NCBI GenBank assembly: GCA_008330645.1 | Contig: VLTN01000033.1 | Span: forward strand, 248,001 to 312,000 | Length of the DNA stretch: 64,000 nt | Reading direction: 5' to 3' | Origin: Cafeteria roenbergensis | Taxonomy: Eukaryota; Sar; Bigyra; Bicosoecida; Cafeteriaceae | Shown here: positions 4,047-22,529 of the stretch, piece after piece | Numbering within the stretch: the first letter of the stretch is position 1 | Layout of the letters: each line of letters opens with the position of its first letter | Program-made: the position numbers and the translations under genes | Notes under the pieces: generated by a model | What the model saw: the letters and a program-made list of their open reading frames with translations, nothing else | Database searches by the model: none | What the model was told of the DNA's origin: nothing

Positions 4047-5351
4047 TCACCGCAGCGGCTCCGCCACAAACACGTCCCTGATGAAGGGCATGGCGTACAG
4101 TCTCAAGCCCCCCTCCTCCTCCACATGCGCCGACTGCGCAATGCACGCCCGCAGCGCCTCGGCCACGGCGTCCCGGTCAACGGCAGGGGCCGCAGCGACC
4201 ACCGATATGGAGCAGAAGTTGCTCACGATTTCGTCTTCTGTCTGAGGCACCGTGTCCCACGCCCGCAGGTGCTGCGTGATGCGAAACAGCGGCTTGGGGG
4301 TCGACGTCGGCGCAAGCGCTTCGCATGGGCCTTCACTGTCGTCCGCAGAGGCTGCCCGCACACGAGCCTGCATGGCTCCAGCTGCAAGGACGGCTGCAAC
4401 GTCGCTGCTGCTGCCAGTGCCGCTGGCCGCAGCGGCGGTGCGAGCCGCTGCCGCCCTCTCAAGCATCCTGGCACCACGCTGAAGCGCGCTGCTCGGAAAC
4501 CTGCCAAAGGCCCCGTGACGCTGCAAGAGGTCTGGGGAGAAGGCTCCCCGGACCGATCCGCCCCCTCCCTGGCCGCTTGCAGCAGCCGGTGACGGGAGGT
4601 GCAAGAGAGAGCTCTGCTCCGGGCCAAGGAACTGGCGACGCCACCGGCCCGACTGCTGCCTTGGGACGCTGGGAGTGTAAAAGACCTCGATTGCCGCCTC
4701 GAGCGCTGCGGGCAGGCACGCCCGGTCCGCGTCGGCCTCCGGCTCACCCGCGCCCCCGCCCAAGGCCGGCCGATCGGGCCCTTCCCCAGGCTGAGCGGAA
4801 GCCCGGACCATGGCTTCGAGGGAGTGGTCCGGCCACCCGCCCACTCCCGCCGTTGACAAAGCGTCACGCGAGTTCCAGGCCAGGACGAGTCTGCCTGACC
4901 CAGGCCTCAGCACGCGATGCAGCTCTGCCAGCGACACTTCGTCAGCGAACCAGTGAAGTGCCTGACCAACACTGACGACGTCAACAGAGCCGGAGGAGAA
5001 GGGCAGGGCAGTGGCGTCGCAAGCATGAACGTTGCTTGCGGGCAGTTCGGGAACCGCATCGGTGATTCCGCTCGCCAGCCCAGTCGGCTCCACCGCGTGC
5101 AATTCAAGCGGGCCGGCTTCGGCAGCCGACAGGGAGGCAGCCATCGCCTTGAGGCATTTTCCCGTCCCCGCGCCCACATCCACAACTCGGAGGGGTCGAG
5201 GCTGGCGCTCCTTCCCGACGCCCTGGGCAAGCAAGCTCGCCGCAGCGCCCAGCATGGCCGCGTTGTACTCCGGCCTGCCTGAGCGGTAGGCGTCAACCAC
5301 GGCCGCGCTAAACCCCTTCGAGGCCATTTCGTGAATGCGGCGCCGGCCCAT
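4047..5351 (-). CDS. SAM-dependent class I methyltransferase (Methyltransf_11 type)
   Basis: Predicted 434-residue protein. The SAM-binding fold is clear: motif I VVDVGAGTGKCLKAM near residue 55, an acidic residue after strand 2 (HAVEP), motif II-like VVSVGQALHWF near 120, and a strand/turn LHRVLRPGSGRLVLAW near 140. The methyl acceptor cannot be told from sequence; this UbiE/CRG1-like group acts on small molecules, lipids or proteins. The N-terminus FSAAVVDAYRSGRPEYN is typical of the subgroup whose helix closes over SAM. I chose the ATG at 5351 because the frame upstream opens with TTG; a second in-frame ATG at 5327 (MASKGF) is equally plausible. The middle (about residues 180-330) is Ala/Gly-rich and probably an insertion. 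It is divergent from the next gene, with 166 bases between starts. Single exon. Confidence 0.85.
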   Translation of the reverse strand: MGRRRIHEMASKGFSAAVVDAYRSGRPEYNAAMLGAAASLLAQGVGKERQPRPLRVVDVGAGTGKCLKAMAASLSAAEAGPLELHAVEPTGLASGITDAVPELPASNVHACDATALPFSSGSVDVVSVGQALHWFADEVSLAELHRVLRPGSGRLVLAWNSRDALSTAGVGGWPDHSLEAMVRASAQPGEGPDRPALGGGAGEPEADADRACLPAALEAAIEVFYTPSVPRQQSGRWRRQFLGPEQSSLLHLPSPAAASGQGGGGSVRGAFSPDLLQRHGAFGRFPSSALQRGARMLERAAAARTAAAASGTGSSSDVAAVLAAGAMQARVRAASADDSEGPCEALAPTSTPKPLFRITQHLRAWDTVPQTEDEIVSNFCSISVVAAAPAVDRDAVAEALRACIAQSAHVEEEGGLRLYAMPFIRDVFVAEPLR

Positions 5352-5517
5352 TTGTCTGGTCAAGGCGCTCCCGCGATGGGCAACCCCCGGGCTGCTTTGC
5401 CGGCTGTGCGAGCTCCGAGCAGCCGCAAACCAAACGGTCGCCTCTGGGCATGCTTGCTTCAGTCAAACATGCACAGATCTGGAGGCCGGCGGCACTCCCC
5501 GACCTGCACCGTTCCCA

Positions 5518-7554: not shown

Positions 7555-8084
7555 GGAGCGCGATATACGGAGGCGAGGCCGGCTCGGCGGCGAGTGGGTT
7601 TGGAACGGGGGCTGAACGCGACAGGTGCTGAGTTCCCGGCTCGCTTCGATTTTGCCGCAAAATGAGTCATGGCTCAACGCGTCACATCGCGAGTGGCTTT
7701 GGCAGCGCATGCGCTCCGGCGCAGCAAGGCCTCGGAGCGCGACGCGCCAGCAACCAACGAAGTGCGAGCACTGTTGCGACAATCAAACTTCAGCTTCACA
7801 CTTCACCACAGACGCTGAGCACCCCCTCCCCCCGAGGCGACCCGGGTCAGCCATCCGCCCGTCGAGCTCCAGGAGGGACGTTGGGTGGTTGGGGCAGGGC
7901 GCCTTTGCGTTGGCTTGGCAGCGAGGGGGCGCGGCTGCCTCGCCTGGGTGGCCCAGCGGGCATAGCGCTGATGGGCGCATGGCTCACGCCCGCACCTGCT
8001 CGCCGGTAACCCCTGGGCCCGCACCTGAGCGTGCTTGCCCGGCAGCCGCCCCCCTCCCCTCCAAGCCATCGACCACGGAGCCGC
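7555..8084. other. Convergent intergenic region, no gene seen
   Basis: 530 bases between the stop of the unknown gene at 5518-7554 and the stop of the diaminobutyrate aminotransferase gene. Small open frames are present on both strands but none has a recognisable protein, biased composition like its neighbours, or splice signals. Probably two 3' untranslated regions. Confidence 0.6.
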
Positions 8085-10421
8085 TCACACGCGGCCGAGG
8101 CCGACCTCCGCCTGCTTGACCGCCGTCCTGAAGATGTCTGCCATTGCGTCGATGTCCTCGTCCTCCACGATGAGGGGGCAGAGGAAGCGCATCACGGAGC
8201 CTCCGCGCCCGCCGCGCTCCTGGATCATGCCGTTCCGCAGAGCGAGCTTCTGCACCTCCCCGGCCATCTCGCCGTCAGGCTTGGGAAGGCCAAGGTGGTC
8301 CACCTCGTCAGCAAGGCCGAACTCCACGCCAAGCATCAGACCGCGGCCACGAACGTCCACGATGGTGGACGACTCCGCCATGATGTCGCGGAGGTGGCCC
8401 ATGAGGCGGGCACCCTTCTCTGCGGCGCGCTCGTGCATCTTGTTGTCACGGAGGTAGTCAGTCTGGGCCTTGCCGCAGGCGAAGGCGATTTGGTTGCCGC
8501 GGAAGGTTCCAGTGTGCGCGCCAGCCGACCACGCGTCGAGCTCGGGCTTGTAAGCCATCACCGCAAGCGGCATGGAGCCGCCAGCTGCCTTGGACATGCA
8601 GACGACGTCGGGCACGATGCCGGATCCGTTGTTCTGGAACGCCCAGAAGTCGCCGGAGCGGCAGAACCCAGCCTGCACCTCGTCCACCACCAGGGGGACG
8701 TCATGCTCGGCGGTGATGCGGCGGAGCTCGCGCAGCGCGGTGGGGGAGAGGGCGCCTACGCCACCCTCCCCCTGGATAGCCTCCACAACCACGCAGGCGG
8801 GCTTGGGGATGCCCGACTCGGCGTCGGCGAAGATGGTCTCGATGTACCTGAGGGAGGGAGGCAGCGCAGGGGGGGGGGGGGGGGCGTGGGAGGCGGGCGG
8901 GGCGTGGGCTCGGTGCCGCCGCTGCGAGTCGCTGCGCGGCGCGGCGCCCTCGACAAGGTCGACGCTGGCGGCGGGAGCTGCGCGACCGAGGCGCAAGGCG
9001 CCATCACCAGCTGGGTGCGCCCTGCCACCCGGCTTGGTCTCCAGCGTCTCTCACTTCATGACCGTCTTCTCGCCCTCCTCGCCGTCGACGCCGAAGGGGT
9101 TGCGGTAGGCATAGGGGTAGGGAAGGAAGTGGACGTCGCTCATGAGGCCAGTGAGGGCCTCCTTAGCGCCGAGGTTGCCCATCATGGCAAGAGGGCCGGC
9201 GCCGTGGCCGTGGTAGCCGCCGTGGAAGGCCATGACGGTGCGGCGCCCGGTGGCGTACTTGCACAGCTTCACAGCGGCGTCGAGCACGTCGGTGCCCGCC
9301 GGAGAGCAGAAGTGGAGCCTGCATTGGGGCAAGCGCACAGCGGGAGAACAGCGCGGCGAAGGGGGCGTTGTGCGGGCTGCAAGCCGGGCCCAGGACACCG
9401 CGCCGGGTCGCACCAGGCGGTCTGGGCGAAGAAAGCCCCAGCCACGGCTCGGGAGGGCGCGGCCGGTGGGCTCACTTGCTCAGCTCCTGGGGCAGCACGG
9501 AGAAGAGGGTCTCCATGTAGGCCTTCTTTTCGGGCGTGGCCATGTCCAGGGACTGGATGGGCGCGCCGGAGTCGAGGAACTTCTTGGCTGCGTCGATCAC
9601 GATGTCGTGGTTGTGGCCGAGCGCCAGCGTTCCCGCGACGTTCTTGCAGTCATAGTATTCCTTGCCATCGGTGTCCGTGAGCTTGCAGCCCTTGGCAGAC
9701 TTGATCGCGAAGGGGAACCGGCTGCGCGGAGAAGGAGGCGGGGACAATCACTCGGGCAACCTGCAATCTCAGTGACCCGAAACTTGAATGGCCCGGTGGC
9801 ATAGCGCCGGATTCGTTGCAACTCTGAGCCGTGTCCGGTCGGGCTGCCGCCCGGAAACCAGCTTCCAGGCGTTGAGGCTTTGCCCATGCGCTGCCTCACT
9901 ACCCCACCTCCACATTTCGGCCAGGCCCCACCGCGCGGCGGGGCTCTGGCGGCCATGGCGCGCGTGGGAAGGGTGGCCGCCGGCGCCGGAACAGTGGATT
10001 GGCATGCAGGCCGGTCTCACCGCACGTACGTCCGGGCGTTCGACTCGTGACGGGCGCTATACTGCGAAAGACACGCGTGACAAGGCCGTACGAACGGTGC
10101 GCGTGGCGGGGGTGCCTCGTGGCCGGCGGGAGGCGCGTGCGCGCTGCCGCAAAGTTGTCCACCACCCTCGCGATCCGGCCTGATTTTCGCGTCTTCGCTC
10201 ACCAAGAGGTACTCGTTGGCAGCGAGGCTCGGGCACTTGGCCGGGTCCGCCCCAGAGTCGCGCGGGTTGGTTGCCACGTGGCCGAACTTGCCCGGCTTGA
10301 GGGCGTCGAGAGCCGCGGCCTGGGCGTCGGTGGGACCGAGGTTCATGCTGGCGGCGCGGGCGCCGACGGGGGCGCGGACCGCGGCTGCGGCGGCGCGAGA
10401 CACGATGCTACGAGACATCAT
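8085..10421 (-). CDS. ectB: L-2,4-diaminobutyrate aminotransferase (EctB function, Dat-type)
   Basis: PLP enzyme converting aspartate-4-semialdehyde plus glutamate to 2,4-diaminobutyrate, the first committed ectoine step. Exons (transcript order): 10421-10203, 10061-10021, 9721-9476, 9318-9055, 8847-8085; all four introns start GTGAG and end CAG, phases agree, and the product is 510 residues. Hallmarks: HESNARTYVRRFPF near residue 80, LALGHNHD, GTDVLDAAVKL, GGYHGHGAG, VVEAIQGEGGV, VVDEVQAGF (Asp about 312), PLP-lysine in VCMSKAAGG (about 343), and HTGTFRGNQIAFA. By eye the FRGNQ, FLPYPY and DMATP segments resemble the Dat branch of class III transaminases more than classical proteobacterial EctB. 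The Ala/Arg/Ser-rich, acid-free N-terminus (about 25 residues) looks like a mitochondrial targeting peptide. It is divergent from ectA, 151 bases apart. The context, not the sequence alone, assigns it to ectoine synthesis. Confidence 0.93.
8869..8884. repeat. G16 homopolymer inside an ectB intron
   Basis: Sixteen G in a row on the plus strand, which is C16 on the coding strand, within the intron at 8848-9054. It lies about 20 bases upstream of the CAG acceptor and forms part of a pyrimidine tract (tccctccctcag). The exact length is likely to be variable or prone to sequencing error. Confidence 0.9.
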
Positions 10422-10572
10422 TTCGAAGCTGAAGGGCCCTTCGCCTTGGTGCGGAGGAGTGCCGAGACGCGCGAGCAAGCAAGGCGGAAGCGGCTCTGGC
10501 AGAGGCCTCTCGCAACAGCCGCTGGGCGGCAGTTTCTCACTCGCGCCGCCCCAGCAGCGCCCCCCCGCCCAG
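10422..10572. promoter_or_regulatory. Shared divergent ectB/ectA promoter region
   Basis: The two start codons face away from each other with 151 bases between, so one short region must drive both genes. No TATA box is visible. There is a perfect 12-base palindrome, GAAGGGCCCTTC, at 10431-10442, just upstream of the ectB start, and TTCGAA at 10422-10427. The palindrome could be a binding site for a dimeric regulator or chance. A bidirectional promoter would coordinate the aminotransferase and acetyltransferase. Confidence 0.55.
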
Positions 10573-11443
10573 ATGGCCATCTTCCGGCGTGCCGCCAACC
10601 CTGCCCTTGCCGCTTGCGCGCGACAGGCATCCACGGCCGCGCCCTCCCTCCTGCGGCTCAACGAGGTTGTTGACGGAGTGCGCTTCCGGACGCCCACCCT
10701 CGAAGACGCGCGCACGATGGTGAGAGGTTCGCGGCGCGCATGGCAGCTTCGCTGCCTGGGAAGCCCACTCGAAGAGCTTGGCGCGCATGCGCGAGGGCTG
10801 CTGCCACCTGGCTCCCCCCGAGCCCACTGTTCGCGGACGTGAAATCGCAGTTTGAGATCGTGACGTCCGGCTCCCTGGACGACAACTCGGCCTATGCCTA
10901 CATGGTCTTCTCCACCCACTTTGCGTCCACGTGCATCGGTGAGGCGCGCCGCCTTGGCTGGCGCACCCAGCGCTGCCGGCTCGAGTTTTGGATGTGCAAT
11001 CGCAGCCAGCCCTCTGCATGCCCGCCCGCCCTGTTTCCCGAACGCCCACTGCAGTGGCCGAGGAGCCCGAGTCCGGAGCGCCCCTCGGTTTCGTCATGGG
11101 CTACTGCCCGCCGACCGACCCCGAAGCCTTCTTTTGCTGGCAGGTCGGGGTGACGGAGGCGGCGCGTGGCCGTGGCGTTGCCAGGCGGATGATGGAGTCC
11201 CTGTGCAAGGGCTTGGCCGACACCTCCGGCGTCAAGTACCTCGAGGCCACAGTGACGCCCGACAACGAAGCGTCGCGCAGGCTGTTTGCAGGCTTCGGCC
11301 GACGGGCTGGCTGCCCCGTCAAGGTGACGGAAGATCACTTTCCGCAGGCAATGTTCCCCCCTGGCCACGACGCCGAAGGCCTGTTTCGCGTGGGCCCGTT
11401 CGAGGCCAGCGACATCGGCGCGCACGACAGCGGGCGAGCTTGA
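10573..11443 (+). CDS. ectA: L-2,4-diaminobutyrate N-acetyltransferase (EctA)
   Basis: GNAT enzyme transferring acetyl from acetyl-CoA to the 4-amino group of diaminobutyrate. Exons 10573-10719, 10851-10938 and 11055-11443 give 207 residues; both introns run GTGAG...CAG and the joins restore the family sequence. Family hallmarks: VRFRTPTLEDARTM (residue about 36-49), GSLDDNSAYAYMVFSTHFA, then the acetyl-CoA-binding segment FFCWQVGVTEAARGRGVARR (about 105-124) and LEATVTPDNEASRRLF. The C-terminus GLFRVGPFEA matches the typical EctA ending LLRIGPFD. Bacterial EctA is about 165-195 residues; the extra N-terminal 30 (MAIFRRAANPALAACARQAS...) are Arg/Ala-rich and acid-free, as in mitochondrial targeting peptides. 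ectC follows 245 bases downstream on the same strand. Confidence 0.95.
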
Positions 11444-11688
11444 ATGCGTGGCGCTGTGCTAGCAGCGCTGGCTGTGGTTTGGGCAGTTTCGATCCTGCGT
11501 TGGTACCTCCGGCCTCGCCCGCGGGCTGATCGTGAAGTGCGCGCGCATGCACGCGCACGCACGAGCTCTGAGCGGGTGTTGCGCGCCCGACACCGCGCCG
11601 ACGCGCTGGCGCTACGACCATTCTAGAGCGGCTCGAGGCTCTGCAGCCCGAGCCCGGTTTGCCGCACGCGAACACTCAGCTCGCAGTC

Positions 11689-12409
11689 ATGGCTGTAGCC
11701 TTTGCTTCCGCAACCGCCAGGGCCAGCGCGCGCGCTGTGGCACGCCCTGCAGCCGCGGCGGTGGCCACCATGCAGCGCCGCACGTTCATCCACCGCACGC
11801 TCCAGGACATCACGGACGCCGGCCAGGTTCATGAGGCCGCCACCAAGACGTGGATCAGCAGGCGCTATACCCTCAGGAAGGACGGCATGGGCTTCTCCTT
11901 CCACTGGACCACGCTCAAGGAGGGTGAGCCAGGCCGGGGAGCGCTGCGCGCGTAGCGACGGGAGGGCAGGCCCGGTGCGGCAGTGCTCGCCGGCTCGGGC
12001 GCTGCTGCTGGTGCCTTCGCCCGACCCCCGCCAACGGCCTCGAGCCTGTCCCTTGCCCGCAGGCACCTCCACCCTCATTTGGTACAAGAACCACCACGAG
12101 GCCGTGTTTGTCTTCGCGGGAGAAGGCGAGATTGAGGTTGTGACCCCGGAGCAGTCCGAAGGCGAAGGCACGGTGTACAAGCTTGGGCCCGGGGACTTTT
12201 ACGGCCTCGACGGCCACGAACGCCACTTCCTGCGGGCAACCAAGGGCGATTTGCACGTCGCCTGCGCGTTCAACCCTCCCATCGCGGGCAGCGAGGACCA
12301 CAATGAGGACGGAGTGTACCCCGCAGTCGACGACGAGGGCAACAAGCATTTCGATCTTACCCCCGAAGTGGTCTCCAAGCTTGTGCAGCCGCCCAAGACG
12401 ATGCGCTGA
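11689..12409 (+). CDS. ectC: Ectoine synthase (EctC)
   Basis: Cupin enzyme that cyclises N4-acetyl-diaminobutyrate to ectoine. Exons 11689-11923 and 12063-12409 (intron GTGAGC...CAG) give 193 residues. The core closely follows the family: GMGFSFHWTTLKEGTSTLIW, NHHEAVFVFAGEGEIEVV, YKLGPGDFYGLDGHERHFLR, CAFNPPIAG, and EDGVYP. In characterised EctC the iron ligands are a Glu, a Tyr and a His with the last two eight residues apart; here Glu91, Tyr125 and His133 keep that pattern. EctC is usually about 130 residues, so the first 28 or so (MAVAFASATARASARAVARP...) are extra, Arg/Ala/Ser-rich and acid-free, which looks like a mitochondrial targeting peptide. A C-terminal tail after VYPAVDDEG is also slightly long. 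An in-frame ATG at residue 28 could start a cytosolic form. Confidence 0.97.
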
Positions 12410-13307: not shown

Positions 13308-15221
13308 ATGGCGATGGCCGCCATGTCCACCAACCGCATGCCCGACAAGGCGTCCGACGACAGCGAGGCGTCGCTGCTCAGCGGGAAGCCGACCTCGGGC
13401 ATCACGCTGGCCATGCTGCCGCTCCGCAAGGGCGGCGCGAGCCCGATGCCCGCCATGGCCAACCTGGTGAAGAGTCTGCTCGGCGCGGGCATCCTGTCTG
13501 TTGCCAACGCCTTTGCCAAGTCTGGACTGGTGTGGGGCATCATCTTGTACCTGCTGGTGGGCGTCGGCGTGACGGGCGGAAACCTCGCGCTGATTGCCGC
13601 CAAGCACGAGCTGAACAAACGCGGCCGACTCGACGTCGAGACGTTCAGCGAGGTCGGCGGCGCTGTCTTCGGCCCGTGGGGCTCCTTCATTGTGAGCGCC
13701 CAGGTGGTCTTCCTGGAGCTGGCCTTCTGCGCCGGCTTCGTCGTCGTCATCCTGGACCAGCTGCACGTCGAGGTGGGGCTGCCCACTGCCCTGGGCTGGC
13801 GCGCCCTCGCCTCCATCGGCCTGGCTGTGCCCCTTGCGCTGCTGGCCAACATCCGGTGGCTCAAGGACCTCTGGCTCGTCAGCGTGTTCGGCCTGCTCGT
13901 CTACGTGGTGGGCATCGTCGGCCTCTCCGTATACGAGTCCGGCGTCGAGCTCTCGCAAGGCACGCAGCCCCCCGACGTGACCCCCACGGCATCGGGCCTC
14001 GTCCTCTTCGTGGGGGTGGCCGTCTACGCCAACGAGGGCATCAACCTCGTGCTGCCCGTGGAGACCACCTTGTCGGACCGCTCCAACGGATACTGGGTCA
14101 CCGCCGTGGGAATGCTCTCGTACAACACCATGTGCGCCGCAATGGGCGCGCTGGCCTTCTCCGCGGGCCTCGGCGAGTGCGGCCTCATCACCGACTGCTT
14201 CACCAACGCGACCGCCGCCGCCGTCGTCCGCTGGGCGCTCGTCATCGCACTCCTAGCCTCCCACCCGCTGCAGCTCTACCCCGCCTCGGAGATCCTAGAG
14301 CGGGGCATGGGCCTCCAGGGCGGCTCGCCCGCGCCTGCGGATGCCGTGGTGCCCGAGGGCGAGGACCCCCCCGAGAGCTGGCCAACCTTCTGGAAACGAG
14401 TCTCGCTGCGCTGCTTCCTGGCCCTGGGTGAGCGACCTTCCATTGCATTGCACCCGCAGGCTGAGAGGCGCGGTGTGTGTGTTACCTTCTGGGCCGGGCT
14501 TGTGTGGGAGGGAGGCGGGCGGGGTCGGATCCGGAGTGGGCTCCGAGCTGGCAGCCGCGGGCTCGCGCGCAGGTTGGACACTCGCAGGCCGGGGCGGGGG
14601 GGGGTGGGGGGAGGGCGGTGATACGCGCGTGACTCGCAGAGTGGGAGTGTGAAGGCGGGCTAGTTGGGGAGTGCGCGGCGGCAGAGCTGGCCGCGCGCCT
14701 GGGTCGCATCGCTGCTTCGCTTCTGGGGTGCTTGGCAAGCGCTCTGGGGCTTCGCGGCGGCGCCGGCGCCGGCGCGCGGTCGAGCCGAGAAGACACGGCC
14801 AAGGGTTTGAATGGGTTCGCCGTTGCAGCGACTGCAAGCCGGGGGCCGCGCCAGCTCGCGCGGGCCGCGAAGGGAGCCGACTGCGGCTGAGGGCGTGGCG
14901 GGGGAGGAGGGGGCCCACTGGGGCGCTCTTGCGGCCGCGACTCTTGCCGTGTTTGGCGTGCCCCTTTCACCTCCCGTTGCCGCAGTGACCTGCCTGCTTG
15001 GATCCCTGGTGCCCGATTTCCCGCTGCTGGCTGACATCATCGGCAACCTCGTCATGACCCTTGTGGGCTTTGTTCTGCCCGTGGCTCTCTATACCGCGCT
15101 GTTCTGGCGCACCATGCCTTGGTACGCGTGGGTGCTCGGCGCCCTCTCCGTCGTCTTCGGCCTCGTGACGTGCGTGTTCGGGACCATCGCGTCTGTGGAG
15201 CACCTCATTGCTAACATCTAG
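13308..15221 (+). CDS. AAAP-family amino acid/auxin-permease-type transporter (Aa_trans)
   Basis: Predicted 451-residue membrane protein with about ten or eleven hydrophobic helices. Exons 13308-14427 and 14986-15221; the 558-base intron (GTGAGC...CCGCAG) is the longest placed here but restores frame, helix pattern and a family-like VTCLLGSLVPDFPLLADIIG. The first helix carries NLVKSLLGAGILSVANAFAK, the AAAP signature also seen in SLC32/36/38 carriers. Helices continue at GIILYLLVGVGVTGGNLAL, SFIVSAQVVFLELAFCAGF, LFVGVAVYANEGINLVLPVE and YNTMCAAMGALAF. The family moves amino acids with H+ or Na+; the substrate cannot be read from sequence. Position inside the ectoine cluster makes an ectoine, aspartate or glutamate role possible, which is inference. 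I chose the ATG at 13308 because the upstream frame opens with TTG. Confidence 0.85.
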
Positions 15222-16217: not shown

Positions 16218-17753
<1,536 letters not shown>

Positions 17754-18347
17754 GGTACTCGTAAGTGGCTCTGGTCAAGCGGAATTGATGCAATCGCTGA
17801 GCGTTGGCCGGATCTGCAGAGCCAGGGTTCCGAGTCCGCCGGCGCCCTGCTGTCTCCGCGACCTTTGGGTCAGCCGCCAGAGGCGCTTTGGACTCCGTGC
17901 GGAGTGAAGGCGTCAGTCGCTGGCTGCCTGGCAGGACGAGTTGCTGCTCGCCCAACCCGCTCCGTGTGCTGCCGGCGCGAGAGAGCGATTTCGACACGCT
18001 TGCCGGTGTGTGTGCGGGGGACGCACAGAGTCGGAATGCGTGGGCAGCGCCAGCGTGCGGCCGCGTTCTCCGCTGTGGGTCGAGCAGCGGGGCTGCGCGG
18101 GCACCTCCCCGAACGCAGCGCCGATGGGGCGGACTGCGCTCGCTGCGGCCCGGCTCTGCTGGACGGGACCGTCGGGCGCAACTGCCGCTGCCGCGATCGC
18201 CCACAGACCGAGCACGGCCCTGTGCCTTCGCGGGAGGAACCGAGGCTGCTGCTGGGCTGTGTTTGTGTGTGTGCACTCGCGCGTCCAGGAGACAAGCGTC
18301 AGCCCAGCGCGGGGGTGGTCGGCCCGCAAGTTGCAGCGGCGTCGGCG
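17754..18347. promoter_or_regulatory. Divergent promoter region between asd and the hydrolase gene
   Basis: 594 bases separate the two start codons. The plus-strand frame of the hydrolase stays open through most of it without a good ATG, which is common at this GC content and is not taken as coding. No TATA box or clear operator is visible. Confidence 0.45.
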
Positions 18348-20510
18348 ATGCACTTTACCCGCTCGCGCCATGTTCGCACCGCCGTGGAACTGGGCGAGCT
18401 GCGCGGCGAGGCGGCAGCAAAGGCGCTGGACGGGCTTCTCTACGCGGAGCCTCTGGGCCTGGGGCTTGAAAACTTCGACGCGCGTGCGTGGCGAGACTTG
18501 CTTGGGTCCGCCGAGCCGGACGATGCCGCCCAGGACATGCTCGACATGATGCTGGACGACTCCTCGCTTCGCAAGGGCGAGTACGTCCTCGGTCCCCGTG
18601 CGCTCGCGGCCGGCGCGGCCCGCATCGTGGCCAGCCTCCGGCCGTTCGACCGCATCAGGACCGACCGGCGATACCTGTCCCGAGCCCAGGCAGAGGCCTT
18701 GGCCGCAGCGGTGCTCCGCGAGCTGGGCGTCTCTCACCTGGTTGGCCGTCGTGCCCGCGCGCGCCTGCTGGGGCTGGGCCCGGCCGCGGCAGCGGCTGCA
18801 ATGGAGGCCGCGGCAGGCGCCGGCCCGGCCTACACCGCTGCCGAGAGCGGGGACAGAGCGGCGGACGCAGCCGCCGCGCAGGCCCTCCGGTCCGGGGACG
18901 GCCTGCACAGCGACGAGAGCGGCACCCCCACCACTGCCGCCTCGGCCGCCGCCGCCTCGGCCGCCGCCGCCTCGGCCGCCGCCGCCGCCTCGGGGCCCAC
19001 GTTCAGCCTCGTTCCCTCCGTACTGGCCACCCACCAGCCCATGCCCCTCCCCATTCGTGCCTTCCTCGCCGGGCTGACGGCCTCTGCCCGCACTGCCGCC
19101 GCGGCGCTCGGCTTCAGGGAGGCACGGGTCACTACGTCCTGGGGTCGCTGGCACTTCTTCGTGGCAGGGCCAACGCCCCCCGCAGAGACAGCGGCAGAGC
19201 TCCCGGCAGAGCCGCCGATTGTGGTTGTTCACGGCCTGTTCACCACTTCGTCTAGTATGCTGGCGCTGGCGTCAGCTCTGTCGACGGCTCTGCCGCACCG
19301 CACAGTGATCCTGCCGGACCTCATGGGATTCGACTTCAGCCTGTCGCGCACGTCGAGAGAACGCCACCTGCCCTCGTGGGCGGACCAGGTGGCCGCGCTG
19401 ACGGAGGCCCTGCGCCAGCTTCACAGGGCAGGCTACCGCTCGTCGCAGCTCGCGCCGGACGAGATCGTTCCGCCCGCGGCTGTTGCGGCCGCCAACAGCG
19501 CAGGTGGCAGCGCTGGCAAACGGGCGAGGACGCGTCGTGCCGCCGGAGGCGGCTGCTGCTTCGACTGGGTGGGCCACTCGTTCGGAGGCTGGGTCTCTGA
19601 GCAGGCGGCAGAGCTGTACCCGGACATGGTCCGGCGCCTGGTGCTCCTCTGCCCGGGCGGGCACGGCCGCTATCGCCGGTACCGTTCCGAGGTGCTGGTC
19701 ACGGGGGGTGGAGAGCCCATGCGCGCCCTGTTCAGGCGCCTCATGCCGTCCGTTGCGGCGCCCCTGGCCGCGCAGGCGATGCTGGGCGTGGCGCAGTCTT
19801 CCGGCGTCATTCGTCAGCTGGTGTCCATGGGGTCGTCTGACTTCTTCGAGCGCCCCTCGGCTCCACTCAAGACCGAAACACTGCTCCTGTGGGGGTCCCA
19901 CGACGACCTCCACAGCCCCTTCTGGGGCCTCCACTGCGACGGCCTGCCCCCGAGTCTGCCACAAGGGAGAGGCCCGTCGCCGCCCGGAGCAGACCGCCGT
20001 GACGCGGCGGCGGTGCCCGCCCCTGGCCTCCCGGGCTCTGCCGCGGCCCGCACTGCTGGCGCTGCCGCCGCAGGCGCGGCCTCGTCGGGGCAGTCACTCC
20101 CCGCACCGCGCCACATGCTGCAGGACCTGACGCGGGCGCGGGGGTTCTGGCTGGAGCGATCAAACCACGCGATCAATGTGGACTCCGCCCACACCGTGGC
20201 CGTGCTGGCTGCGCGGTTCTTCACAGGGGGGCTGGAGGCGCTCCCGGACGCGCCCAGCGCGCTCCGCATGACGGCGGACGTACCGCTCGTCGGTGCTTGC
20301 GCTGGCCTGGAGCGGCGGCGCGAGCCTGCTTCCGACCAGCCCGTCGGGGGTCCGACGCTGGTGGCCAGGGCGCTGGCAGAGGCGCTTCGGCTGGGCACAT
20401 CGGTTGTGTTTCGGTCGATGAAGGAGGAGCCGGTGACAGAGCCAACAGTGGGCGATGCAGCGCGGGCCGCGGCCGAGAGCGGCGCCCAGAGTCGTCCGGC
20501 CAAGCTGTAG
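18348..20510 (+). CDS. Alpha/beta-hydrolase-fold protein
   Basis: Predicted 720 residues, single exon, ending TAG at 20508-20510. The C-terminal half is an alpha/beta hydrolase: oxyanion strand PIVVVHGLFTTSSS near residue 287, PDLMGFDFS near 325, nucleophile elbow GHSFGG with Ser411, an acid candidate in LLLWGSHDDL near 515 and the histidine in RSNHAINVD near 604. The substrate is unknown; lipases, esterases and epoxide hydrolases share this layout. The N-terminal 200 residues have no domain I recognise; a poly-Ala stretch (about residues 195-215) forms the linker. Insertions of Ala/Gly/Pro (about 380-400 and 545-590) lengthen the domain. I chose the ATG at 18348; the frame is open upstream to 17418 but that part overlaps the asd gene and lacks good starts. 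Confidence 0.85.
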   Translation: MHFTRSRHVRTAVELGELRGEAAAKALDGLLYAEPLGLGLENFDARAWRDLLGSAEPDDAAQDMLDMMLDDSSLRKGEYVLGPRALAAGAARIVASLRPFDRIRTDRRYLSRAQAEALAAAVLRELGVSHLVGRRARARLLGLGPAAAAAAMEAAAGAGPAYTAAESGDRAADAAAAQALRSGDGLHSDESGTPTTAASAAAASAAAASAAAAASGPTFSLVPSVLATHQPMPLPIRAFLAGLTASARTAAAALGFREARVTTSWGRWHFFVAGPTPPAETAAELPAEPPIVVVHGLFTTSSSMLALASALSTALPHRTVILPDLMGFDFSLSRTSRERHLPSWADQVAALTEALRQLHRAGYRSSQLAPDEIVPPAAVAAANSAGGSAGKRARTRRAAGGGCCFDWVGHSFGGWVSEQAAELYPDMVRRLVLLCPGGHGRYRRYRSEVLVTGGGEPMRALFRRLMPSVAAPLAAQAMLGVAQSSGVIRQLVSMGSSDFFERPSAPLKTETLLLWGSHDDLHSPFWGLHCDGLPPSLPQGRGPSPPGADRRDAAAVPAPGLPGSAAARTAGAAAAGAASSGQSLPAPRHMLQDLTRARGFWLERSNHAINVDSAHTVAVLAARFFTGGLEALPDAPSALRMTADVPLVGACAGLERRREPASDQPVGGPTLVARALAEALRLGTSVVFRSMKEEPVTEPTVGDAARAAAESGAQSRPAKL
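18931..18992 (+). repeat. Poly-Ala coding repeat (gcctcggccgcc units)
   Basis: Tandem 12- to 15-base units coding Ala-Ser-Ala-Ala in the linker of the hydrolase gene. Units are nearly identical, so the tract probably varies in copy number. Confidence 0.8.
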
Positions 20511-20813: not shown

Positions 20814-22340
20814 CTATTGCATGCGCGCCGCCTCCGCCGCGCGGGCCTCTCCCATGGCCGCCCGAAACGCTTCCACGTCGTCCGTGCTCGGCAGCAGCTG
20901 GATGGGCGTCTCCCCGCTGCTGACAGCAGTCACATCCGCCCCGTGCGCTACCAACACTCCCGCCGTCACGGCGTCCCCGGCAGCGCACGCGCAGTGCAGC
21001 GGCGTTGCGCCGTCCACGTCCGCGGCGGCCACGCTGGCGCCTGCCTTCACCAGCGCCCTCACGGACTCCGGCTCTCCGGCCTCCGCTGCCATGTGAAGCA
21101 GCGTGGTCCCGTCCGAGTCCAGCGCAGTGCGGGCCAGTCCGCCGGCCTGCGTTCCCGCCTTGCCCAGGATCATCAGGACGGTGTCAACGTCCCCGGTTCG
21201 GACCGCCTCCTCCAGCGCGGCAGCTGCCGCAGACAGCGGCCCGTCCGTGGGCGCGGTGGCGAGGTCGACGTCCACCCCGCGCAGCGGTTTCACGCCGCTG
21301 CCGGATGCGCTGGTGCCCCCTCCCATCTCGGGCATAGGCGGAGCTGTGGCGGGCGCGTCGTCTGGGGTTTCGAGCAGCTTGCAAGCCACAGCGTCCACGA
21401 ACGCCGCCGCCAGCGCCGGTGCGACGGCTCCAGCGGCCGCGCGGCCGCCCGAGACGGGTGTCGAGGACGGGGATCCACCGCTAGGCCCCGCCCACAACGC
21501 CACAGGGCCTTGGTCGCCGCTTGCGCGCCTGGCGAGGCCGGCAATGACGAGCACCTCGACGCAGTAGCGCGCCTTTGCCTCTGGCTGCTTCATGCCTCGA
21601 ACGCCTCCCCACGCAGCGCGCTTGGCGGCCCCCACGGGGTCCATGAGCGACGCTGCGCCCGCGGCCCAGCCGCCTCCTGCTGCCGCCGAGTCGGCCGGCG
21701 CGTCGCCGTTGCCCGCCTGCTTGAACAGGGCGTACAGCCGGAGCATGTCAGCGTCCGCCACGGAGTCGCCGAGGCTCTTGGCTGCCGCGCACGCCGATGC
21801 AAAGGCCTGCTCTAGCTGATCGGCGTCGGGCGCAGCCGTCTCGGACGCCTCCTTGCCTGCGGAAGGCAGATGCATCATGCTGCCGCGGTGACGCTCCGCC
21901 AGCGCATGGCCGCGCGTGTCCACAGCTGCCACAGCGGCTGCACTCGGACTCGGTGGGAAGAACCAGTCTGCGAGCCACAGGCAAGCCACAGGGCGGGACG
22001 GTCTTGGGCGAGGGCGGCAGTCGCGAGCCTTCCCGTCCGGCCGCCGCTCGCCACCGCTGCCTGCCCCCCCACACGAGTCCAACCAGCGTGGGGCGCTGTG
22101 GCCAGGCACAGCCGACCGCGGTCAAATGCGGCACCGGCGACAGGGGCAGCGCTTGGTGCAGCGACCCCCTCGGCACGGCGGTCGCCGTGCGGCGGGCTCA
22201 CCGTGCACCACCAGGTCCCAAGCCACGCGGCCCGCCGCCACCACAGCTGCCGCCGCCACAATGAGCCGAGCATCCTGTGTTGACAGCCCTGTAATCCACT
22301 CAAGGGGCCCGCGGGAGGCCGTGCGCGTCTTGTCGGCCAT
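20814..22340 (-). CDS. Membrane-anchored acyl-CoA-binding protein with ankyrin repeats
   Basis: Exons 22340-22202 and 21967-20814 (intron GTGAGC...CAG, 234 bases) give 430 residues. Order: hydrophobic N-terminal segment at residues 25-46 (ARLIVAAAAVVAAGRVAW...), a linker, an acyl-CoA-binding domain at about 97-190 (LEQAFASACAAAKSL, ADMLRLYALFKQAGNGD, then AKRAAWGGVRGMKQPEAKARY), a low-complexity region, and two to three ankyrin repeats at about 320-420 (GTTLLHMAAEAGEPESVRAL, GATPLHCACAAGDAVTAGVL). The ACB domain carries long-chain acyl-CoA between membranes. TM-ACB-ankyrin is the layout of plant ACBP1/2; animal ACBD6 has ACB-ankyrin without an anchor. The ACB domain has an Ala/Gly-rich insertion between its second and third helices. 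It probably sits on the ER or plasma membrane, facing the cytosol. Confidence 0.9.
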
Positions 22341-22457: not shown

Positions 22458-22529
22458 GCCGTCTTGAGCTAATGGATAAGCATGTTGTTTTCTACACAAT
22501 AAATCCGAGTTCGATTCTCGGAGACGGTG
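22458..22529 (+). tRNA. tRNA-Arg (UCU anticodon)
   Basis: A 72-base cloverleaf folds cleanly. The acceptor stem pairs GCCGTCT with AGACGGT (one G-T at the tip), the D-arm is in AGCTAATGGATAAGC, the anticodon stem is GTTGT/ACAAT with loop TTTCTAC (anticodon TCT), and the T-arm is CCGAG-TTCGATT-CTCGG. The discriminator is G; CCA is not encoded. No intron. A pol III terminator TTTTT lies at 22535-22539 and internal A- and B-box-like sequences are present. It decodes AGA, which should be a rare codon in so GC-rich a genome. Confidence 0.95.

Follow-up and report, generated by a model that had tools for sequence, protein, structure and literature searches.

Gene Organization of the Locus

The stretch of DNA analyzed here (the window) comprises 64,000 nucleotides of the Cafeteria roenbergensis assembly (36,303,456 bases in 167 contigs) and corresponds to C33:248001-312000, contig C33 being 415,007 bases long. 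At window positions 8085-12409 it contains three intron-bearing genes, which encode an L-2,4-diaminobutyrate (DABA) aminotransferase on the reverse strand and the ectoine biosynthesis proteins EctA and EctC on the forward strand. An earlier sequence-only reading had delimited a complete ectoine cluster at these coordinates, with four, two and one introns in the respective genes. Our gene models reproduced the intron counts and both limits, the aminotransferase gene ending at 8085 on the reverse strand and ectC at 12409.

The aminotransferase gene (Dat class, TIGR00709; 509 residues) has five exons: exon 1, which encodes an N-terminal extension (10203-10418), exon 2 (10021-10061), exon 3 (9476-9721), exon 4 (9055-9318) and exon 5 (8085-8847), the last containing the codon of the pyridoxal 5'-phosphate (PLP) lysine, K342. 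Three exons make up ectA (10573-10719, 10851-10938 and 11055-11443; 207 residues, TIGR02406) and two make up ectC (11689-11923 and 12063-12409; 193 residues, PF06339 and NF009806); by residue alignment, the second exon of ectC encodes the metal ligands E91, Y125 and H133. N-terminal extensions, as previously noticed, are present in all three proteins. The attribution of a separate promoter space to each gene was only partly apt, considering that the divergent ATGs of the aminotransferase gene and ectA are only 154 bp apart (10419-10572) and that 245 bp separate the ectA stop from the ectC ATG on the same strand. The 154-bp gap is a candidate promoter region, which the aminotransferase gene and ectA may share.

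All seven modelled introns start with GTGAG and end with AG, and every exon join in the three genes keeps the frame and runs through family-conserved sequence. In the window, counting both strands, GTGAG occurs at 115 of 5904 GT dinucleotides (1.9%). Since the joins were chosen with homology, phase and this same donor motif as guides, the uniformity of the motif supports the models and is not an independent test of them. Retention of six of the seven introns would give a frameshift or a stop. The least certain is intron 1 of the aminotransferase gene (10202-10062, 141 bp), because its retention neither shifts the frame nor adds a stop, and an open reading frame (10017-10919) spans it. On the basis of these models, the introns are probably spliced and the three genes probably expressed.

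Family Assignment of EctA and EctC

EctA scored 153 bits with TIGR02406, above the curated equivalog cut-off of 120.6, and EctC scored 144 bits with NF009806 (cut-off 128) and 142.2 bits with PF06339 (cut-off 27). The family signatures originally seen in the two proteins thus pass curated thresholds. The solved structures nearest EctC are the ectoine synthases 5onm and 5bxx. Eleven ligand or conserved residues, among them the iron ligands Glu-57, Tyr-84 and His-92 (Paenibacillus lautus numbering), are listed in the available text of PMC6344544. Ten of them (W21, S23, R25, T40, Y52, E57, Y84, H92, C104 and F106) are kept in EctC from the window and in 84/84 relatives, while N38 is replaced by histidine, as is also the case in 78 of the 84 relatives. 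Together with K342 of the aminotransferase, these residues bear out the earlier remark on active sites. In a profile search of the whole genome, ectC and an ectA passing its cut-off were found at this locus only. A scan of viral contigs with EctC gave no relatives.

The plasmid search with EctC matched 119 records, of which 40 were listed and four opened. A conjugative plasmid of Marinobacter salarius (L027:3986-4381) carries an orphan ectC, without ectA or ectB in 8.4 kb.

The Aminotransferase Belongs to the Dat Class

The aminotransferase scored 489.2 bits with the TIGR00709 'dat' model, above the subfamily cut-off of 401.6, and 331.7 bits with the EctB model TIGR02407, well short of its cut-off of 552.2. 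The best-scoring model was PRK06938 (566.4 bits, below the cut-off of 671), and the narrower PRK06931 gave 504.2 bits (below the cut-off of 753). A quick tree (LG+G4) of 87 rows grouped the protein with five Dat members, to which it is 46-49% identical in the alignment, against 81 EctB sequences, with a Shimodaira-Hasegawa-like approximate likelihood-ratio test (SH-aLRT) value of 100. Twelve alignment columns separate Dat from EctB; the aminotransferase is Dat-like at ten of them, EctB-like at none and neither at two. The PLP lysine K342 is conserved in 87/87 aligned rows. Membership of EctB is ruled out by the failed TIGR02407 cut-off and by the position in the tree. By its sequence, the protein is a Dat/RhbA-class enzyme; its original description as a diaminobutyrate aminotransferase holds as to the family, and the class is Dat/RhbA and not EctB. 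No EctB-class aminotransferase was detected elsewhere in the assembly with the TIGR02407 profile, the other matches reaching at most 153.6 bits; one of them, on contig C105, is an acetylornithine-type transaminase.

The plasmid search with the aminotransferase matched 234 records (40 listed, five opened). Relatives among the 40 matches listed are Dat or RhbA proteins, 45-50% identical to the query. Siderophore operons house four of the five opened (Picosynechococcus, Halorussus, Thalassospira and the rhizobactin operon of Sinorhizobium), and the fifth, from Methylocystis, lies in a non-ribosomal peptide synthetase (NRPS) locus. Among viral contigs no relative of the aminotransferase was found. 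The bacterial context of ectC was different: in the 80 loci whose EctC is nearest to that of the window, taken as the best from at least 591 stretches (at least 581 relatives) and not as a census, an EctB-class neighbour was present in 78 and a Dat-class one in none, while two (L041 and L049) had neither within their flanks. These two loci are from Alkalibacillus (ectC at 8001) and show no match to ectA or ectB within 16 kb.

According to the accessible part of PMC10228743, Dat enzymes possess the activity needed for DABA formation. The aminotransferase of the window probably feeds EctA. The cluster therefore appears to be a mosaic, in which two members of ectoine families, EctA and EctC, are combined with an aminotransferase of another class for the same product.

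Residence in the Nuclear Genome and Origin

GC content of the window is 65-75% in 2-kb steps, the GC content at third codon positions of the three genes is 0.82-0.88, and the neighbouring genes look eukaryotic and bear introns, modelled there too with GTGAG and AG ends. The closest bacterial sequences are 54% (EctC), 50% (aminotransferase) and 39% (EctA) identical. Quick trees were made for EctC and EctA without eukaryotic ect sequences. The EctC tree (85 rows) did not resolve the protein among Bacilli, Desulfobacteria, Clostridia and others and gave it an end branch of 1.21, whereas in the EctA tree (82 rows) the protein joined Magnetovibrio and a metagenome-assembled genome of Rhodospirillaceae with an SH-aLRT value of 82 and an end branch of 1.62. 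A named bacterial donor was rejected, considering the lack of resolution for EctC, the SH-aLRT value of only 82 for EctA and the long branches of both.

Neither the database search nor the trees with bacterial homologues gave a bacterial relative close enough for contamination. With the introns, the length of the contig (415 kb), the host-like GC content and the eukaryotic-looking neighbours, this agrees with the sequence-only reading, which had considered the genes as resident in the nucleus; that the aminotransferase-ectA-ectC cluster consists of resident eukaryotic genes is well supported by these sequence features. The genes were probably acquired from prokaryotes, the aminotransferase from a source of the siderophore/NRPS type, other than that of EctA and EctC. 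The first 30 residues of EctA, the aminotransferase and EctC each contain four lysines or arginines and no aspartate or glutamate, and the enzymes may be located in mitochondria.

Neighbouring Genes and Possible Precursor Supply

Aspartate-semialdehyde dehydrogenase (ASADH), whose product is the substrate of the aminotransferase, is encoded 3.8 kb to the right of ectC on the reverse strand (16218-17753; exons 17753-17488, 17174-17018 and 16847-16218; 350 residues). It is of the bacterial asd_B type, with 377.1 bits over a cut-off of 324.2 for TIGR01296 and 412.1 over 223 for NF011456/PRK14874. Between ectC and this gene sits a forward-strand gene for an amino-acid transporter of 451 residues (13308-15221; exons 13308-14427 and 14986-15221; PF01490, 163.8 bits). 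Two ASADH loci were found in the genome with PF02774, one in the window and one on contig C24. The latter (C24:361707-362240, L118) is an asd_EA-type enzyme by its score of 367.3 bits (cut-off 301.2), so that the genome holds two ASADH classes.

An aspartokinase gene of three exons (486 residues, TIGR00657) lies outside the window at C33:237809-239978, 16.1 kb to the left of the aminotransferase gene, so that each step from aspartate to ectoine has a gene inside 28 kb. TIGR00657 found two clear aspartokinase loci in the genome, on contigs C3 and C33, plus two weak pieces on contig C46. Contig C46 carries two genes for amino-acid kinases at a distance of 4 kb from each other (130166-131462 and 134636-135516), apparently a tandem duplicate. 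From C3:36310 onward (L113:325-3897), a long frame has its best match in the family of bifunctional aspartokinase-diaminopimelate decarboxylases, with 607.9 bits against a cut-off of 802. To our knowledge, this bifunctional enzyme is unusual in eukaryotes. Between the aspartokinase and aminotransferase genes, the reverse strand of the window carries a frame with a methyltransferase domain (4047-5462; PF08241, 43.3 bits).

No match to the EctD model TIGR02408 was found in the genome; the same search on nine bacteria with ect genes gave six matches over the cut-off, one below it and none in two. The likely product is ectoine and not 5-hydroxyectoine.

Proposed Pathway and Alternative Explanations

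In the proposed pathway, aspartokinase would phosphorylate aspartate, and ASADH would then reduce the phosphorylated aspartate to aspartate semialdehyde. The Dat-class aminotransferase would transfer the amino group of glutamate to the semialdehyde, giving L-2,4-diaminobutyrate, whose gamma-nitrogen would be acetylated by EctA. Ring closure by EctC, an iron cupin, would yield ectoine, which would serve as a compatible solute in the cell. Taken together, the gene content makes it highly probable that this marine bicosoecid flagellate has a resident nuclear ectoine pathway. Cafeteria presumably accumulates ectoine, as the sequence-only reading had also supposed, and the cluster may respond to salt. 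The nearby aspartokinase and ASADH may be devoted to ectoine.

A wider reading, which we put forward tentatively, is that Cafeteria possesses its own aspartate-to-ectoine cluster of about 28 kb (aspartokinase, ASADH, Dat, EctA, EctC and perhaps the transporter), a mosaic of parts of differing origin that may use a siderophore-type DABA aminotransferase in place of EctB, unlike the bacterial operon, in a flagellate that is not a halophile.

Some findings weigh against these proposals. The stop-free intron 1 of the aminotransferase gene could be retained. As regards mitochondrial location, the N termini were no more amphipathic than shuffled sequences, their helical moment being reached by 168 (EctA), 589 (aminotransferase) and 83 (EctC) of 1000 shuffles. 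The aspartokinase on contig C33 scored 199.6 bits with TIGR00657, just below the cut-off of 208.7, and its identity to the kinases beside bacterial ectC does not exceed about 27%; for these reasons we do not consider it an Ask_Ect enzyme. In 89 loci, an ASADH-like gene beside bacterial ect genes was represented by one weak match (41.6 bits). Finally, the genome contains one homoserine dehydrogenase gene (contig C4), and the kinase and ASADH may therefore serve threonine and methionine synthesis.

The last points bear on the explanation that survives best, namely that aspartokinase and ASADH belong to general amino-acid synthesis and lie nearby by coincidence, the functional cluster being limited to the three genes. 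We regard this as a serious possibility, at somewhat less than even chances. It is favoured, besides the homoserine dehydrogenase and the kinase not resembling Ask_Ect, by the intervening genes (the transporter, the methyltransferase-like frame at 4047-5462 and others leftward). On the other hand, 36.3 Mb contain only two clear aspartokinase and two ASADH loci, and the chance of such nearness would be about 0.002 for the kinase and about 0.0004 for ASADH, by hand arithmetic that assumes uniform placement and was made after the genes had been seen. Moreover, the other copies look committed elsewhere, the kinase on contig C3 to the fusion with diaminopimelate decarboxylase and the ASADH on contig C24 as an asd_EA-type enzyme.

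It is improbable that EctA and EctC make ectoine while the Dat gene, secondarily positioned there, serves another use of DABA, such as 1,3-diaminopropane, a siderophore or a peptide precursor. The siderophore and NRPS loci of the opened Dat relatives and the absence of a Dat-class gene from the best 80 bacterial ectC loci would fit this explanation. However, the Dat gene is divergent from ectA with only 154 bp between the ATGs, the product of its family is exactly the substrate of EctA, and no EctB-class enzyme was detected elsewhere in the assembly with the TIGR02407 profile. Still less probable is that the three genes are silent or decayed remnants; the long end branches of EctC and EctA might suggest it, but all exons are open and the EctC ligand residues and the PLP lysine are kept. 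Bacterial contamination or misassembly, which one might suspect because most other members of the EctA and EctC families are bacterial and the host feeds on bacteria, is refuted as far as sequence allows by the introns in the three genes and their neighbours, the 415-kb contig, the host-like composition and the absence of bacterial relatives above about 54% identity, and retains hardly any probability.

Comparison with Known Systems

The available portions of PMC5796728 and PMC5924519 report for Halocafeteria that ectABC, ectD and ask_ect contain introns, that the genes are arranged in a cluster and that targeting to mitochondria is predicted, in line with the earlier mention of ectoine genes in this protist. 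According to these texts, Halocafeteria seosinensis resembles Cafeteria in being a bicosoecid stramenopile with spliceosomal introns in each ect gene, in the clustering of these genes (there ectABC plus ask_ect) and in the lateral origin proposed for them. It differs in having ectD, which had no match in Cafeteria, and in being an obligate halophile, Cafeteria being an ordinary marine flagellate. As to ask_ect, the Cafeteria contig carries an aspartokinase gene 16 kb away, whose product is not Ask_Ect-like. Of the earlier expectation that a clustered and reoriented eukaryotic version would be notable, the cluster itself and the aminotransferase on the opposite strand are real; the novelty is smaller, because clustered intron-bearing ect genes had already been reported for Halocafeteria.

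The bacterial ectABC(-ask) operon, as in Vibrio pelagius (L024), shares the EctA and EctC families and the three chemical steps. In contrast, Cafeteria has Dat for EctB, an aminotransferase gene on the opposite strand, introns, and a kinase gene that is neither adjacent nor Ask_Ect-like. With the Dat/RhbA/PvdH-type aminotransferases (TIGR00709) the Cafeteria enzyme shares the family cut-off and 46-49% identity to five members, but it is eukaryotic, intron-bearing and N-terminally extended, and lies beside ectA and ectC and not beside siderophore genes. Fusions of ectA and ectC in protists, Branchiostoma and Saccoglossus, described in the consulted part of PMC5796728, similarly associate the two genes physically, whereas in Cafeteria they are separate and adjoined by the aminotransferase gene.

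The exchange of the aminotransferase is the most interesting part of the finding. In the parts of the literature covered by our search, the exchange of Dat for EctB and a nearby ASADH were not met; the class of the Halocafeteria aminotransferase is not given in the available text of PMC5796728 and PMC5924519. The word ectoine is absent from the main text, as available, of the Cafeteria genome paper (PMC6972860). In the accessible ectoine literature searched, Cafeteria roenbergensis appeared in a gene-duplication remark in one paper; the search gave nothing on ectoine with Cafeteria burkhardae.

Few cases of ectoine synthesis in eukaryotes are known. In Cafeteria, a bacterivore that has been sequenced and is kept in culture, the pathway is intact and clustered and can be tested at marine salinity. 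If another enzyme class can fill the entry step, searches based on ectB only would miss producers. A related gap is reported in the available part of PMC7024275, where axenic diatoms contain ectoine although no EctC can be recognised in them. The locus also bears on how eukaryotic metabolic gene clusters form and on the supply of ectoine to marine bacteria by grazers.

Other Features of the Window

Farther to the right, the window contains a forward-strand frame with an alpha/beta hydrolase domain (17280-20507; PF00561, 43.6 bits) and a reverse-strand frame with acyl-CoA-binding and ankyrin domains (20814-22121). A tRNA gene on the forward strand (22458-22529) is the sole Rfam match above the gathering score in the window.

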